From NCBI GenBank assembly GCA_020847855.1, contig JADLBH010000037.1, positions 248,001 to 312,000 of the forward strand: 64,000 bases of DNA, read 5' to 3'. A program made the translations under genes and the position numbers. The notes beneath the pieces were generated by a model that did not search any database, was not told the origin of the DNA, and was given only the letters and a program-made list of their open reading frames with translations. The DNA comes from Fimbriimonadaceae bacterium. Its GTDB lineage: Bacteria; Armatimonadota; Fimbriimonadia; Fimbriimonadales; Fimbriimonadaceae. Positions 9,694 through 62,766 of the stretch are shown here, in pieces. The stretch's first letter is position 1; each line of letters begins with the position of its first letter.

Positions 9694-10839
9694 TCAGTAT
9701 AGTTGCTGAGAAGAGGGGACTTTATCGAAACCGCTCGTTGCGTTGCCTCGGTACCGGCTCGTACGGGCCACGCCCGACGCCACCGGACGGAGCAGGTGCC
9801 GTCCGAGGCACTCCGCGAGAGGAACGGGAACGGCGTTCCCGAGCTGGCGGTACTTCTGTGCGGTAGTCCCCTCGACGCACCAATCGTCCGGGAAGCCTTG
9901 AAGTCGAAGATACTCCTCGACGCTCAAGGGCCGGAGTTCGCTCGGATGCGCGAGCAACGTGGCAGGCATCGTGGGCGAGGTCACCAGGGTCGGGCTCGGC
10001 TCATCCCAGGCGAGCCGTCTGAGAAACCCGGTACGGCCGCCACTGGAATCGAAAGCACGCCCCAGTGCCTCCCGTTGGAGCCTCTCGGGCAAGTCTCTCC
10101 AGTTCTGCCCAGGCCCCAGCATTGCGGTGTACTTGGCTTGGGCCGACCGGAGAGGTGCATGCTCGTGACGCACGAGCCCTGCCGTGGCCTCCCGGAAGGT
10201 CACTCCTTGCAAGGCTTCGTTTCTCGGCGGCATCAAGGGCCATGCCAAGCTGCCGCGAGAAGCGATCAGGATCACGCGCTCGCGCCGCTGTGCAGCCCCA
10301 TAGAGCGAGGCGTCGTAGAGGCCCACGCAGGTGCGATAGCCCGCACGGGACAAGACTTCTCCGACCCGTCTCAGCACGCCCCCTGGCCGCTCATCCTCGC
10401 TCAAAGGCGGATAGCCCGAGCCCCTCTCAGCATGCGGCCGGTGCCGCAACGGGGCCGAGAGCAGCCCACGGACATTTTCCAAAACGATCCAGCGAGGTTC
10501 GAGTTGGATCGCCAGGTCAAGAAAGTCAAACGCAACCGTGCCTCGCTGGTCGGCGAGGGAGCCTCGCCGACCCGCCGTCGAGAACGCCTGGCACGGGGGG
10601 CCCCCGGCCACGAGGTCGAGATCGCGATCGCCGAGACCACTCTCGCGCCTCACACTGTGGGCATCGAGCTTGCGGACGTCACACTGGAGCAAGGGGAGAC
10701 TGGGGCGGTTTCGTTGGATGGTGGCCGCGGCGACAGGATCCATCTCGTTGGCCCCGAGGCACTCGAACCCTGCCTGCTCCAGGCCGAGGTCGAGTCCCAT
10801 CGCCCCTGTGAAGAAGCTCAGGAAACAAGGACTGCGCAT
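9694..10839 (-). CDS. DNA (cytosine-5-)-methyltransferase, orphan
   Basis: A 381-residue C5-cytosine methyltransferase. Motif I is SFFTGAMGLDLGL (8-20), motif IV AGGPPCQAFS with catalytic C83, motif VI ENVRG (121-125) and motif VIII QRRERV (184-189). Motifs IX/X are present as YLRLQGFPDDW and KYRQLGNAVPV. The region between motifs VIII and IX, where target recognition sits, is short. No restriction endonuclease gene is next to it, so it looks like an orphan regulatory or mismatch-linked methylase. The only Vsr-type nuclease in the window is 48 kb away. It sits between two paralogous membrane-protein genes, suggesting insertion between tandem duplicates. Recognition sequence is unknown. Confidence 0.93.
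   Translation of the reverse strand: MRSPCFLSFFTGAMGLDLGLEQAGFECLGANEMDPVAAATIQRNRPSLPLLQCDVRKLDAHSVRRESGLGDRDLDLVAGGPPCQAFSTAGRRGSLADQRGTVAFDFLDLAIQLEPRWIVLENVRGLLSAPLRHRPHAERGSGYPPLSEDERPGGVLRRVGEVLSRAGYRTCVGLYDASLYGAAQRRERVILIASRGSLAWPLMPPRNEALQGVTFREATAGLVRHEHAPLRSAQAKYTAMLGPGQNWRDLPERLQREALGRAFDSSGGRTGFLRRLAWDEPSPTLVTSPTMPATLLAHPSELRPLSVEEYLRLQGFPDDWCVEGTTAQKYRQLGNAVPVPLAECLGRHLLRPVASGVARTSRYRGNATSGFDKVPSSQQLY
9696..9701 (-). promoter_or_regulatory. Putative -10 (TATACT) of paralogue A
   Basis: TATACT ends six bases before the ATG at 9689 and lies inside the last codons of the upstream methyltransferase gene. The spacing predicts transcription starting at or next to the A of ATG. Confidence 0.6.
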
Positions 10840-56501: not shown

Positions 56502-58523
56502 ATGCCAAAGCGGCCGATGCGATTGGAGGATCTGGAGCAGATGACCTTCCTGGGAGACCCCCAGATGAGCCCCGATGGGAAACAAGTCCTCTTCGCCAAG
56601 AAGACATGTGGGGAGAAGAACAAATACATCACGAACCTATGTCTCGCCGAAGTCGCCTCCGGCACCGTTCGACAGGTCACGCAAGGGGAAGGAGGAGCGG
56701 GGCTGGGCCGATGGTCTCCCGACGGCCGTTCGATCGCGTTCGTGAGCGGCCGCGAGAAGAAGCAGGCGCAGGTCTTCCTCCTGAGCATGGAGGGCGGCGA
56801 CGCTCGGCAACTCACCGCGTTTCCCGAAGGTTCCCTGGGGGCGCTGGTCTGGTCACCGGACGGCAAACACATCGCGGTCTCCTTCCGCGAGACCCATCCC
56901 GAGCGCACCCAGTCGGCGGCAAAGGCTAGGGAAGAGAGCGGCGCAAGCGAGCCGCCGTGGGTGATCGAGGACTTGTTCTACCGTATGGATGGGGACGGCT
57001 ACTTTGGGCCCCAACGGTACGGGCTGTTCGTAGTCGAGGTCGAGACCGGCAAGCACAGGCCCCTCGAAGGCGCCGACAAGTTGGGATTCTTCAGTTTCTG
57101 CTGGCTGCCCGACAGCTCCGGGCTCGTTTCGGCGCGCTCGGTCAACCGAGAGCCCCTCTTGCAAAAGCCGAACGATCAGTTGTTCCTCGTGCCGCTGCAG
57201 GGCAAGACGAGCAAGATTGCTTGCAACACCAAAGGCACGAAGGGCAGCCCAAGTGTCTCGCCCGATGGGAAGTGGATCGCGTACACGGGTTCCGATGTCC
57301 CCGAAGATCCGTGGGGCGTCCACAACTCGCGGCTCTGGATCCTGCCGATCGGTGGGGGAGCGGCAAGGTGCCTTACGTCCGAGGCCGACTATTGCCTCGA
57401 TGTCTTGAGCCTGAGCGACACAAGTTTCGGCTTTGTGGCCGACGGAGGGGGGAGCGGCCTCGTGCTTTGGTCTCGCGACTCGAAGACGGTCACGGTGAAC
57501 GTCGGACATCACGGAGCCGTTCACATCGCGCACGTGGACGCTGCCAGAGGAGGTGTGAGGCTCGCCACGAAGCCCAGACAGGTCGCGGTCGCCTCCAACG
57601 CCAGTTCCGACGGATCCAAGGTCGCTTGTACGATCGGCACCGTGACTCGTCTCGCGGAAATCGGCATCTACGAGCCAAAGTCTGGCAAGCTCCGCCAACT
57701 CACAGACGTGAACAAGAAGTTCCACCAAACGGTGGAGATCGTTCCCCCGACCGAGCACTGGGTAGAAAGCACGGACGGTGTCAAGGTCCACACTTGGAAA
57801 CTCCGACACCCGCGCAACAAGGCTAGGAAGTCCCCAGTCGTCCTGGAAGTCCACGGCGGTCCGCACGCCCAGTACGGCTGGGCGCTCTTCCACGAGTTCC
57901 AGCTCCTCGCCGCCGAAGGCTACGTCGTCGTCTACAGCAACCCGCGTGGCTCTAAAGGATATGGAGAAGCCTTCTGCTCCGCGATTCGGGGCAACTGGGG
58001 CGAGAAGGATTGGCAGGACGTCCAAGCGGTCACGGCTTGGATCAAGAAGCTTGATGGGATTGACCCCAAGCGGATCGGGGTGATGGGCGGCTCTTACGGC
58101 GGATACATGACGAACTGGGCGGTGAGCCACACCACCGAGTACAAGTCTGCGATCACGGACCGGTGCGTCTTCAACTGGCTGTCGGCCGCGGGCAACAGCG
58201 ACTTCCCTTTGAACAAGGACGGTTACTTTGGCGGCCAAGCCTGGGGCCCGCACGAAGAGACGAGGACGCTATGGGAGCAAGGCCCGGTCGCGCACTTCCA
58301 CAAGGTCAAGACCCCCATGCTCATCATCCATTCCGAAGGCGACTTGAGGTGCAACGTCGAGCAGAGCGAGCAGGTCTTCTACGTCTTGAAGTGCCTTGGG
58401 GTCCAGGCGCGGTTCGTCCGCTATCCCGCCTCCACCTCGCACGGCCTCTCGCGCAACGGCCCCATGGATCTGCGACGGCACCGCCTCGGCGAGATTGTAC
58501 GGTGGTGGAAGGCGACCTTGTGA
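56502..58523 (+). CDS. S9-family prolyl oligopeptidase/acylaminoacyl-peptidase
   Basis: A 673-residue serine peptidase. A seven-bladed propeller (about 1-400; repeats such as MSPDGKQVLFAKK, WSPDGRSIAFVS, VSPDGKWIAYTG) is followed by an alpha/beta hydrolase domain. That domain holds nucleophile S531 (GGSYGGYMTNW), an aspartate in SEGDLRCNVEQ near 613 and a histidine in TSHGLSRNGP near 647. It trims short peptides, probably in the cytoplasm since no signal peptide is seen. The vsr gene begins seven bases after its stop, so it may share a transcript with that cassette. Confidence 0.94.
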   Translation: MPKRPMRLEDLEQMTFLGDPQMSPDGKQVLFAKKTCGEKNKYITNLCLAEVASGTVRQVTQGEGGAGLGRWSPDGRSIAFVSGREKKQAQVFLLSMEGGDARQLTAFPEGSLGALVWSPDGKHIAVSFRETHPERTQSAAKAREESGASEPPWVIEDLFYRMDGDGYFGPQRYGLFVVEVETGKHRPLEGADKLGFFSFCWLPDSSGLVSARSVNREPLLQKPNDQLFLVPLQGKTSKIACNTKGTKGSPSVSPDGKWIAYTGSDVPEDPWGVHNSRLWILPIGGGAARCLTSEADYCLDVLSLSDTSFGFVADGGGSGLVLWSRDSKTVTVNVGHHGAVHIAHVDAARGGVRLATKPRQVAVASNASSDGSKVACTIGTVTRLAEIGIYEPKSGKLRQLTDVNKKFHQTVEIVPPTEHWVESTDGVKVHTWKLRHPRNKARKSPVVLEVHGGPHAQYGWALFHEFQLLAAEGYVVVYSNPRGSKGYGEAFCSAIRGNWGEKDWQDVQAVTAWIKKLDGIDPKRIGVMGGSYGGYMTNWAVSHTTEYKSAITDRCVFNWLSAAGNSDFPLNKDGYFGGQAWGPHEETRTLWEQGPVAHFHKVKTPMLIIHSEGDLRCNVEQSEQVFYVLKCLGVQARFVRYPASTSHGLSRNGPMDLRRHRLGEIVRWWKATL

Positions 58524-58530
58524 AACCATC

Positions 58531-59007
58531 GTGACGGAAACGAAGCTTTACGGGATCAACAGGCTCCGCGAAACCTTGGTCGTCAAGGAGAGCGTCCGCC
58601 GTTCGATGCAAGGGAACGCAAGCAAGGACACGAAGCCGGAGGTCAAGCTGAGGAAGGCCCTCTGGGAAGCCGGCCTTCGTGGCTACCGCAAGAACTATCC
58701 TCGCTGGCCCGGCAAGCCCGACATCGCCTTCGTTGGCAAACGGCTCGCCGTGTTCGTCCACGGGTGCTTTTGGCATGACTGTCCGATCTGCAAAGCGGGC
58801 AAGCTCCCTGCCACCAACGCCCGCTTCTGGCGTGCTAAGATCGAGCGCAACCGACAGCGCGATGGAGAGAACTTGGACGCACTGAGGTCGGCGGGGATCT
58901 TGGCAATCGTAATCTGGGAGTGCGAATTGAACCGAGACCTCGCGTCGTGCGTTTCCTTGGTCTCGAGCGCCCGCACGAAGATGGGAGGATGCGCGAGCAG
59001 GATCTAA
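58531..59007 (+). CDS. vsr: Vsr-family DNA mismatch endonuclease
   Basis: A 158-residue very-short-patch-repair nickase. ASKDTKPEVKLRKALWEAG is the family start, PGKPDIAFVGK carries catalytic D64, and FVHGCFWHDCPIC holds H77/H82 and zinc-binding cysteines (C79, C84, C87). WECEL (C131) completes the zinc site region. Vsr nicks 5' of the T in T:G mismatches left by 5-methylcytosine deamination. Usually it neighbours a cytosine-5 methyltransferase; here the only one is 48 kb away. The GTG at 58531 gives a family-like N-terminus; no Shine-Dalgarno sequence. The 3' end overlaps the next gene by 19 bases. Confidence 0.93.
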   Translation: MTETKLYGINRLRETLVVKESVRRSMQGNASKDTKPEVKLRKALWEAGLRGYRKNYPRWPGKPDIAFVGKRLAVFVHGCFWHDCPICKAGKLPATNARFWRAKIERNRQRDGENLDALRSAGILAIVIWECELNRDLASCVSLVSSARTKMGGCASRI

Positions 59008-60863
59008 TCCGAATCTTGGGCAGCAACGGTGAAGGCCGTTGCAAACGGCTCGTACGCGAGGTGTTCGAGTGGCCTGGGCACCCCGAGCGGCTTGCCTCGA
59101 TCGGGCCGATCCAAGTCCTGGAGCGGAACGAACCCACCTTCGACCCCGGAAGCTTGGTGCTCAGCAAAGCTACAGGCCCGGAGATTCAGCTCTCTTGGGT
59201 TCGAAACGAGGTTCCCGCCATCATCACCTTGAGCCCGGAGAGGGCGTTTGGCACCGAGATCGAACGGCTCGAGACCATCCAACTCGCTTACGACAGTGCC
59301 GAGCCCAAGGTGCTCCTCGACCGCTCCTTCGACTCGATGGTGACCGCGAGGGCGTTCGTGGCGGAGATGACCGCCTTCGTCGAGGACTGTTACCACGGCG
59401 TCGAGGCGGCAACCTCCACGCGGCGATCCGCGACCAGGCCGCTCCCTCCCACCCAAGCCAAGTCCGTCCTCTCCTCCTATCTCACCAAGACCGTTTTCGT
59501 ATGGTTCCTGCAAGAGCGGGGTTGGCTCACGTACAACGGACAAACGGGCTACCTACAGGCGCTCTACGATGCCTGGAAGGCAGACCCCGGATCCTATCGG
59601 TTCTATCAGCGCCTGGGCCATATCGTCTTTCGGGCGATCGCGGCGACGGACAATTCGGCAAGGAGCATCCTACGCCCCTTGGTCGGCGACGTCCAGAGTA
59701 TTGGGGCGAGCTTCCTCGGTCCGGGTGAGGTGCGAGCCCTCGGCTGCGAAGGGTTCGAGCCGGTGATCGCGGACGAGGTGTTCGAGAGGCTGCTTGGGGA
59801 GAACGGTCTGTTACGCCGATACCACCCGCAGTTCGAGCACGGGCACGAAGACATCGAGCACGTCGGATTGAGCTACCTTGCGATGACCGCCGCCCTCGAA
59901 GAATTAGAGTACGGTGCAAACCACGAGTCCCTCATGGACCTATTGCGGCAAGCGAGAGAAGCGATCCAAGCGGAGGCTGGAGGGGCGGGAGCACCGCCCG
60001 AGGAGAGGCTCGAACGCCTTCGGGGACTGCGGCTCTACTCCCCGGAAGCAGGTTCGGGAGCGATGCTCACGGCGCTCCTCCGTGAAGCGACCCGTGCCTT
60101 CAGCGAAGCGCGGGAAGAACTGGGAGGAGAGGGCGAGAGCCCAGCCGAGTTCGCTCGGTCGCTCGCAAAGGACCGCGTGACCGCCGTGGACCATTGTCCG
60201 AAGAACGTTTTAAGGACTCAAGCTGGGATCTCGCAGCTTCTGCTCGAGCTCGATTCCGTAGAGTCCCCAGCGATCCTGCCCAACCTCAGACAATCGGTGC
60301 AGGAAGGCAGGGCGATCGTCCAATTGCAGGCCCCGCGCATGGTCGAGGACGAGCATAACGAGTTCAAGTCCTCGTTCAACTGGAACAGCCGTACCCAGCA
60401 GCGCGACGCTCGGCTTCGCTCCGGCGTCGTGCGGACCGTGGCCGCGTTCCTCAACACGAACGGTGGAACGCTCTGGCTCGGGATTGACGACAATGGCAGG
60501 CCGGTAGGCTTGGAAGACGAGCTCGCGCTGATTGATGACGCCGCAGCCGAGGACGTGTTCCGAGGCCAGGTTCATGAGGCGCTGAAGAATCAAGTCGAGC
60601 CTTTGCCCTTCCACCACCTGATCTGGGAATGGCGCAGAGTGATGGGCAAGAGCGTCGCCAAGATCTCCGTCCGTCCCAGCCCAGGCGTAAGCTACGTACT
60701 GGAGAAGGCGGAAAACGGTCGCGTGGACGAGACCATCTATGTTCGCGACGGCAACCGCACGATCGCGCTCCTGGGGAGGCATCGGGATCAGTTTGTGATC
60801 GCGCGCAGTACGGGATCGGCTACTCTCTCCCCGGCATGGATCGAGACGAAGCCTGGGCACTAG
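58989..60863 (+). CDS. Fusion of a degenerate Eco57I-type adenine methylase scaffold with an AlbA_2 (Schlafen-type) domain
   Basis: A 624-residue protein. Residues about 140-440 follow the N6-adenine methylase plan: a helical SYLTKTVFVWFLQERGWL block near 160-178, GDV...ADEVFERLL, then a motif-I-like SPEAGSGAML (351-360; family DPACGSGxFL). Next comes a VTAVDHCPKNVLRTQAGISQLLL segment (family YGVDIDPxAV..A...L.L) and LPNLRQSVQEG (family LPNLxxxIxxGNSL). The catalytic NPPY motif is missing: the methylase ends there and an AlbA_2 domain begins (about 452-620; EHNEFKSSFN, AAFLNTNGGTLWLGIDD, DETIYVRDGN). No GxFYTP is present. So it probably keeps a nucleic-acid- or SAM-binding shape without methylation. 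The ATG at 58989 or a GTG at 58920 may be the start. Overlaps vsr and the HD gene. Confidence 0.75.
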   Translation: MREQDLIRILGSNGEGRCKRLVREVFEWPGHPERLASIGPIQVLERNEPTFDPGSLVLSKATGPEIQLSWVRNEVPAIITLSPERAFGTEIERLETIQLAYDSAEPKVLLDRSFDSMVTARAFVAEMTAFVEDCYHGVEAATSTRRSATRPLPPTQAKSVLSSYLTKTVFVWFLQERGWLTYNGQTGYLQALYDAWKADPGSYRFYQRLGHIVFRAIAATDNSARSILRPLVGDVQSIGASFLGPGEVRALGCEGFEPVIADEVFERLLGENGLLRRYHPQFEHGHEDIEHVGLSYLAMTAALEELEYGANHESLMDLLRQAREAIQAEAGGAGAPPEERLERLRGLRLYSPEAGSGAMLTALLREATRAFSEAREELGGEGESPAEFARSLAKDRVTAVDHCPKNVLRTQAGISQLLLELDSVESPAILPNLRQSVQEGRAIVQLQAPRMVEDEHNEFKSSFNWNSRTQQRDARLRSGVVRTVAAFLNTNGGTLWLGIDDNGRPVGLEDELALIDDAAAEDVFRGQVHEALKNQVEPLPFHHLIWEWRRVMGKSVAKISVRPSPGVSYVLEKAENGRVDETIYVRDGNRTIALLGRHRDQFVIARSTGSATLSPAWIETKPGH

Positions 60864-61393
60864 TCACGCACCACACGGCGTCGGACTCCCTTCGACGTCA
60901 CATGCTCGGTGTGGAGGCTTGTATGCGATGGTATGCGCGACACTTCGGAGAAGACCCCCATCCCTGGGGTCTGGCCGGGTTGCTCCACGATTTCGACTAC
61001 GAGGAGCATCCCGGCGAGCACCCGCTCTGGGGCCTGGAAAAGCTCCGCGCTCTGGGAGTCGAACCGGAAGTCTGCGAGGCCATCGCAGCACACTATCCCG
61101 CCAAGACCGGGGTGGAGCCGATCTCCGCGATGGCGCGCCACCTCTATGCCTGCGACGAGATGACGGGGTTCGTCTTTGCGGTCACCTATGTTCGGCCAAG
61201 CCGACGAATCGAGGAGGTCGAGGTCAAGAGCGTGACCAAGAAGATGAAGACACCTTCCTTCGCTGCCGCAATCCCAAGGAGCGATCTCCTGCTCGGCGCA
61301 GAACTCATCCAACTCCCGATCGAAGACCACATCGGAAACGTTCTCCAGGCCCTGGCGGGGCACGCCGAGGCCCTCGGCCTCGCGGGTAACTAG
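60836..61393 (+). CDS. HD-domain phosphohydrolase-like protein
   Basis: A 185-residue HD-domain protein: a first histidine in SLRRHMLGVEACM (H22), the HD doublet in GLLHDFDYEEHP (H51-D52), a later HYPAKTG histidine and a DEMTGFVFAVTYVRP aspartate. This is the metal-binding set of small HD hydrolases. VTKKMKTPSFAAAIPRSDLL is the typical closing segment of the uncharacterised HDIG-like proteins. The start overlaps the fusion gene by 28 bases, so it is translated from the same mRNA. HD proteins often hydrolyse nucleotides or signalling nucleotides; its substrate is unknown. Confidence 0.88.
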   Translation: MDRDEAWALVTHHTASDSLRRHMLGVEACMRWYARHFGEDPHPWGLAGLLHDFDYEEHPGEHPLWGLEKLRALGVEPEVCEAIAAHYPAKTGVEPISAMARHLYACDEMTGFVFAVTYVRPSRRIEEVEVKSVTKKMKTPSFAAAIPRSDLLLGAELIQLPIEDHIGNVLQALAGHAEALGLAGN

Positions 61394-62766
61394 CCTCCGA
61401 CGCGCCCTCGGAGGCTCGGGGAACTTCCGCCGCCGCCCGTCGAGCCCGAAGACTCTGCGGGAACCTCGCCATCCTCGATCACGATCGTCGCTTCGACGCC
61501 TGCCGCCGACAGGTCGTCGTCACCTTCCTTGGTCGAAGCGTCCACCCAAGTCGCTACATAATCGTCGCCCAAGGAGTTCACCATGCGCACCTTGCGGTCG
61601 GGGGTGCCGGTGAGCTTGATCCTCTCCGCCTCGAGGTCATACTGGGCCTTGTTGGCCCAAATCACTCGCCAGGCGTCGGGCCCCAGGCTCTGCCTTGCTT
61701 GGGGGGCACCCGAGAGCACTGCCCTTCGCGAGCCTTCGGAATACCAGTACTCCACGGTCTCGGCGGTGATCGCCATCGGATACTCGCGCAAGCTTTGGCT
61801 CTCCCGCAGCGGGTTCGCCTTTTCGGGAGCCTGCTCAGGCCGTGGGCGGCCCGCGGAGAGGTTCTCCGGAACGAGCGGGGTGACCGGCGGCACCTCCACC
61901 ACCTCGATGCCCCGCTTGGCTCGCGGTTTCACCAAAAGGTCAACCGTGCCCTGCAGCAAGACACGGCGCTCTTTCCGGAAGACGGTCGCCTTCCTCGCCG
62001 TCGCGTTCAGTTCCTTGCCGTAGTAGGTCACGTTGCCCGTCGCCAAGAGTACGTCGGTCTCGCGGTTGTACTCCGCGGTGTCTGCCTTCACCGTGACTTC
62101 GCCGTCCGTCGCGGTCACCTTCGTGAACTTGCTGACCGGTCCCTTGATCGTGGTCACGGACTCGGGGCTCGTAGTGAACCGCCAGTTCGTACGGCCCTTC
62201 TGCTGGGGTGGTTGCCCTTGCCAAAGCAGACCGGTGAGTCTGAGGGTGCCGTCCTGAGGAAAGTAGGCGAGGCGGGAGGCCTTGACCGAGCCCTTGAGCA
62301 GCGTGCCTCGGATCGGCCCATCGCTCCGGAGCCAGGATTCTTTGGGCTCGAAACGGAAGGTCGGTGTGTTCACGTCGAAGTCCGCGGTGTGGACCCTGGC
62401 CCCGCCGCTCCCTGTCAGAGCACCTTGTTCCGAGTAATAGACGACGCTTTGTGCATCGAAGCCGAAGGCTCGGCCCTCCTTCGTGCGGTATACGCCGTCG
62501 CGGACGCGGGAGAGGGTCACGGTGTCGCGGGACGCATCGCTACTGATCTTCGCGACCTTCGCCGTCGCCACGAGACGGTCGCCATCATGGGCTTGCCACT
62601 GGTTCACCCGCATCTCCACCGCGGGCGCATCGGGATCCGCCTCTGCGCGAAACTCGGCCATGGGATCGGCACCCAGTGCCTTCTTGCCCACGAGATAGCC
62701 CTGCCACGCTCCGAAGCCGAGCAGCACGGCACCGACCGCGCCCAGAAGCCTACGGTAGCGTGACAT
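61390..62766 (-). CDS. LptC/OstA-like envelope protein (second LPS-transport-type protein)
   Basis: A 458-residue protein with an N-terminal membrane anchor (LLGAVGAVLLGFGAWQGYLV) and several OstA/LptC-type jellyroll stretches: RVNQWQAHDGDRLVATAKVAKI, FTKVTATDGEVTVKADTAEYNRETDVLLATGNVTYYG, and RRVLLQGTVDLLVKP. A charged region rich in Pro/Glu follows, then further strands (RIKLTGTPDRKVRMVN). It appears to combine LptC-like and LptA-like domains in one chain, separate from the 41.9-43.3 kb pair. It could be a second bridge or serve another lipid. It overlaps the upstream lipoprotein gene by 17 bases and shares a CTAG stop with the HD gene. Confidence 0.8.
   Translation of the reverse strand: MSRYRRLLGAVGAVLLGFGAWQGYLVGKKALGADPMAEFRAEADPDAPAVEMRVNQWQAHDGDRLVATAKVAKISSDASRDTVTLSRVRDGVYRTKEGRAFGFDAQSVVYYSEQGALTGSGGARVHTADFDVNTPTFRFEPKESWLRSDGPIRGTLLKGSVKASRLAYFPQDGTLRLTGLLWQGQPPQQKGRTNWRFTTSPESVTTIKGPVSKFTKVTATDGEVTVKADTAEYNRETDVLLATGNVTYYGKELNATARKATVFRKERRVLLQGTVDLLVKPRAKRGIEVVEVPPVTPLVPENLSAGRPRPEQAPEKANPLRESQSLREYPMAITAETVEYWYSEGSRRAVLSGAPQARQSLGPDAWRVIWANKAQYDLEAERIKLTGTPDRKVRMVNSLGDDYVATWVDASTKEGDDDLSAAGVEATIVIEDGEVPAESSGSTGGGGSSPSLRGRVGG

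Follow-up and report, generated by a model that had tools for sequence, protein, structure and literature searches.

A remnant of a restriction-modification methylase joined to a Schlafen-type AlbA_2 domain looks like a resident gene of one Armatimonadota family

The window, the whole stretch of 64,000 nucleotides that was analysed, contains at positions 58531-61393 three overlapping genes on the plus strand. They encode a Vsr endonuclease, a 624-aa protein composed of a methylase-derived part and an AlbA_2 domain, and an HD protein. Profile searches with TIGR00632, AlbA_2 and PF01966 recovered all three genes where an earlier note on this DNA, made from the sequence alone, had placed them. 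The vsr gene (58576..59007) overlaps the fusion gene (58989..60863) by 19 nt, and the fusion gene overlaps the HD gene (60839..61393) by 25 nt. The Vsr frame ends at 59007 and its start is uncertain: GTG at 58531 and TTG at 58576 are the candidates, and the TTG start matches the length of E. coli Vsr better. The frame of the fusion gene is supported by its AlbA_2 profile match and by the alignment to long methylase-AlbA_2 proteins. An S9 peptidase gene (56502..58523, plus strand) lies upstream and a convergent gene for an LptC/LptA-like protein (61390..62766, minus strand) downstream; both are conserved neighbours and are given as context, the peptidase lying outside the mechanism proposed below. 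A promoter/terminator scan and an Rfam search revealed nothing useful, no PADLOC family matched the fusion protein at E-values up to 1, and a search for this protein in plasmids gave no match.

The methylase-derived part of the 624-aa protein consists of a helical N-terminal domain of the BrxX/MmeI/type IIG-like kind (59334..59978, residues ~116-330) and the N-terminal half of a Rossmann methylase core (60024..60308, residues ~346-440) with the segments SPEAGSGAML, VTAVD and LPNLRQSVQEG. Direct searches of Pfam, NCBIfam and PADLOC with residues 1-450 of the window copy found no methylase match at a meaningful E-value, and phmmer with residues 1-449 against the PDB found nothing. Using tblastn, residues 1-449 matched Eco57I-type methylases in related genomes (1.7e-15 for a frame of 1229 aa, 1.8e-11 for one of 1272 aa), and one relative matched MmeI_Mtase at 4e-6. 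The helical domain gave an HMM match to long Eco57I methylases. The model of the whole protein reached a pLDDT of 77.7. A structure prediction limited to residues 115-447 had a pTM of 0.83, and the PDB entries that Foldseek ranked best for it were BrxX/PglX and MmeI (probability 0.72-1.00, no E-value below 0.001). Since the tblastn matches, the MmeI_Mtase match of the relative and these folds agree, we consider the methylase ancestry as sound: the N-terminal and motif I/II region is homologous to Eco57I/type IIG N6-adenine methylases, and the Eco57I plan proposed from the sequence holds up to motif II with the LPNL segment.

Beyond this point the methylase is incomplete. The half-core lacks YYTP, NPPY and the target-recognition domain (TRD); that the catalytic motifs are missing and AlbA_2 stands in their place had been noticed before. 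The catalytic NPPY (motif IV) was absent from the window copy and from every short relative scanned and is present in the long forms; the aligned YYTP (motif X) and the TRD are missing from the window copy in the alignment to the long proteins L061 and L062. The fusion shares the fold of the helical domain and of half the methylase core with MmeI and with BrxX/PglX of BREX systems, but it has neither a catalytic motif nor a TRD, and no BREX gene, including the partners PglZ and BrxC, was recognised among its annotated neighbours. The poor retention of SAM motif I across the copies speaks against a conserved SAM sensor. Because the TRD was lost together with the catalytic half and motif I is not conserved, little is left for the reading of DNA, and the description of this part as a methylase-derived reader is not supported.

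Proteins of about 1,230-1,390 aa with an intact Eco57I-type methylase and an AlbA_2 domain at the C-terminus were found within the host family as well as in other phyla. In the host family (L061-L065, 1229-1301 aa) they consist of a helical N-terminal domain, the intact methylase and the C-terminal AlbA_2 domain; the proteins of 1229 and 1301 aa matched Eco57I at 4e-42 and 3e-24 and AlbA_2 at 5e-15 and 2e-18, respectively, and MmeI_Mtase as well. The same architecture is present in Calothrix (L147), and profile matches indicate it for Solibacteraceae and Zixibacteria. The earlier note had regarded the composition as undescribed; what is new is the internal deletion and the domestication, and not the joining of methylase and AlbA_2 itself. 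The host-family long forms examined (L061-L065) adjoin a large helicase-sized gene, which is a PLD-SNF2 helicase where it was scanned (L061, L062 and L064). At L062 a second AlbA_2 protein of 294 aa follows the long form.

The 624-aa protein is colinear from end to end with the long proteins L061 and L062, except for YYTP and one block of ~560-600 residues. This block extends from shortly past the LPNL...GDSL region up to the AlbA_2 domain, and its position indicates a joint loss of the TRD and the catalytic half with NPPY. The tree of the N-terminal part places every short form on the same side of one branch (support 100), and the long rows closest to this branch are L061 and L062, which bear AlbA_2 and belong to the same family. 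In a tree of the AlbA_2 domain, built by a quick method and with many weak forks, the short forms also group together, but outside the long ones. Since the short forms are not nested there, a methylase fragment may have been fused to a different AlbA_2 domain instead of arising by internal deletion. A chimera of the assembly was rejected because the identical architecture recurs in independently assembled genomes.

Long and short proteins are clearly homologous and share the domain order (helical N-terminal domain, motif I/II region, AlbA_2), but the long form possesses YYTP, NPPY, the TRD and a helicase partner (PLD(HKD)-SNF2, PADLOC C3a139-like), and the short form none of these. Both forms coexist in three genomes (G004, G032 and G107). 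This coexistence and the common N-terminal interface domain would fit a short protein that acts in trans as regulator or decoy of restriction-modification or defence systems consisting of the full-length methylase-AlbA_2 protein and the PLD-SNF2 helicase. We consider such a role as quite improbable: the helicase is absent from most genomes with the fusion and from the window genome (G000), where the fusion protein thus does not need it, and G000 contains no other match to the protein.

In its Fimbriimonadia-like family of the Armatimonadota, 22 of 85 genomes contain the short or reduced form, as counted by profile hits and simple gene calls. A search of 291 genomes of the phylum revealed none in other Armatimonadota, and none was found outside the phylum by a pattern-limited contig scan with a profile from a four-row alignment. 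The locus is conserved in many genomes, in the order PurQ/NlpC, S9 peptidase, Vsr (in some of them), fusion, HD and convergent LptC-like gene. The lengths of the short forms fall from ~640 to ~343 aa, and classes of ~450 aa and ~350 aa occur in the same family. In one genus (L079, L113, L115 and L118) the gene before HD encodes ~343-361 aa; the AlbA_2 domain is kept and the methylase remnant is undetectable. Such shortening and the progressive loss of methylase motifs could mark a decaying pseudogene of an old restriction-modification methylase. This explanation is very improbable, as the gene is under purifying selection: in the testable pairs dN/dS is well below 1 in the methylase-derived and the AlbA_2 part alike, with values of 0.06-0.24 in the methylase-derived part for close pairs with unsaturated dS (several other pairs were saturated). 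These values indicate that the remnant is maintained and not decaying. The frames are also intact in 22 genomes, and the gene is tightly coupled to HD.

The AlbA_2/Schlafen domain (60345..60809, residues 453-607) was identified with the SLFN_AlbA_2 profile (PF04326) at residues 453-591 with an E-value of 7.5e-16. It carries the Schlafen nuclease motif ExxxxExK (E453, E458 and K460) and additionally D501. Of the 28 short or reduced copies, 26 keep this motif, as do all 20 aligned AlbA_2 domains. With Foldseek, the C-terminus of the whole model matched the tRNase domain of SAMD9, SLFN13 and SLFN14. Each of the three motif residues of SLFN14 (E206, E211 and K213) is essential (PMC12215978), as are the motif glutamates of SLFN13 (PMC5862951), and a BREX survey refers to bacterial Schlafens as RNases directed against phages (PMC12839542). 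The AlbA_2 fold is thus common to the fusion and these RNases, and ExxxxExK is common to it and the Schlafens. The fusion differs from them in that its AlbA_2 domain is joined to a methylase remnant and not to the partner domains of Schlafen or SAMD9 proteins, and its RNase activity is a prediction.

At L027 1594-7260 (G003) and L066 8815-14474 (G032) the short fusion occurs in tandem arrays, with three or four copies that have diverged from each other. One paralogue lineage of these arrays has lost the AlbA_2 catalytic motif, which points to a non-enzymatic role at least there. Extended to the whole family, such a role would mean that AlbA_2 binds nucleic acid without cutting and that the protein functions in chromosomal regulation or as a nucleoid-associated factor, which would agree with the vertical, non-mobile character of the locus. 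We regard this as rather doubtful for the family in view of the retention of ExxxxExK in nearly all copies and of the closest folds, which are RNases.

The HD/HDIG metallohydrolase encoded by the third gene matched PF01966 at 1.9e-8 and the HDIG profile above its cut-off. Its best PDB matches were 2ogi and two Ap4A hydrolases. The protein shares the HD motif with the YqeK/HDIG hydrolases, but the similarity is remote: it reached 11.6 bits with the YqeK equivalog TIGR00488, far below the cut-off of 70.15. The neighbourhood survey supported the HD part of the cassette and not the Vsr part. The fusion gene stands directly before HD, with a gap of 0-34 nt or an overlap, in 12/22 fusion genomes from four genera, and both genes co-occur with a Fisher p of 0.004 in the 85 genomes, in a test that treats genomes of shared ancestry as independent. 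HD was also found in 35 genomes without the fusion and therefore has a life of its own. The two fusion genomes without HD are incomplete assemblies (72% and 88%), and a gap in the assembly may explain why the gene is missing from them.

The Vsr protein belongs to the very-short-patch mismatch endonucleases (TIGR00632 at 5e-33, above cut-off; PF03852 at 3.7e-23). Alignment to PDB 1cw0 (4e-19) demonstrated that the E, D and HxxxWH catalytic positions are kept. According to the earlier note, a Vsr nickase, a methylase-derived DNA reader and the HD protein could form one module for defence or DNA-damage response. The overlap of the genes in G000 and the adjacency of Vsr and fusion in four further genomes (G007, G016, G081 and G083; three genera together with G000) speak for it. 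In the remaining 17/22 fusion genomes, however, no Vsr adjoins the fusion. In tests that treat the 85 related genomes as independent, Vsr was associated with cytosine-5 methylases, which 24 of the 28 genomes with Vsr contain (Fisher p 5.5e-5); for the fusion no such association was seen (p 0.19). The DNA-reading TRD of the fusion is gone. In G010 (L088 7092-8146) S9 lies upstream and Vsr adjoins HD directly, the fusion being absent from this position. Such a module is therefore unlikely, and by the simpler reading Vsr is probably a separate tenant of the locus, providing ordinary mismatch repair for cytosine-5 methylases. The window Vsr shares subfamily and intact active-site positions with the known enzymes of VSP repair and differs from them in having no adjoining C5 methylase; in Caulobacter, too, Vsr is encoded apart from its C5 methylase (PMC12907096). 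G000 contains two C5 methylases. The one within the window (9694-10839, minus strand; PF00145 at 4.4e-53) has no recognised partner; it is the nearest to Vsr in the window, ~48 kb away, and its possible cognate.

For the fusion and HD we propose that the ancestor was a restriction-modification type Eco57I methylase which already carried a C-terminal AlbA_2 domain. With the loss of YYTP and of the block containing the NPPY half of the Rossmann core and the target-recognition domain, methylation would have been lost, and the remnant would have persisted in this one family as a resident gene passed on vertically; the outcome resembles a restriction enzyme gene that was turned into a host gene. 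The homologous helical domain of BrxX is a proposed interaction interface (PMC12839542), which suggests a like role for the remnant. Helical domain and half-Rossmann core may thus serve as scaffold or sensor interface that restrains AlbA_2. A stress or phage signal would release AlbA_2 as a Schlafen-type, metal-dependent RNase that cuts tRNA or other RNA, and the HD hydrolase, co-translated with the fusion, might modulate this response, for instance through hydrolysis of a nucleotide signal. For a domesticated, non-methylating scaffold which controls a Schlafen-type RNase and is coupled to an HD hydrolase we estimate a probability of about 50%. The analysis demonstrates common ancestry with methylase-AlbA_2 proteins, the loss of motifs, the conservation of locus and nuclease motif, purifying selection, the adjacency of HD and the statistics on Vsr; the RNase activity, its trigger, the role of HD and a function in defence are what we infer. 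The more specific reading, in which the gutted methylase forms the regulatory half of a Schlafen-RNase/HD-hydrolase module that is resident, inherited vertically and serves stress response or abortive defence, is tentative.

Within a single bacterial family, the long form and those of 624, ~450 and ~350 aa record a stepwise remodelling from a restriction-modification methylase to a Schlafen-type protein that does not methylate and is fixed in the chromosome. Provided that the RNase is active, they would show how parts of phage defence become domesticated and would offer a compact system for studying what a methylase scaffold senses once methylation is gone. In the literature we found no description of a domesticated immune gene of the gutted-methylase/Schlafen-RNase/HD kind. 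AlbA_2 has been added to R subunits too: at L195 (4950-8459) an HsdR-like protein with HSDR_N, SWI2_SNF2 and T1R_D3 domains carries it at the C-terminus. L197, L202, L204 and L219 group with L195 in the AlbA_2 tree, the domain scan covering L195 only.
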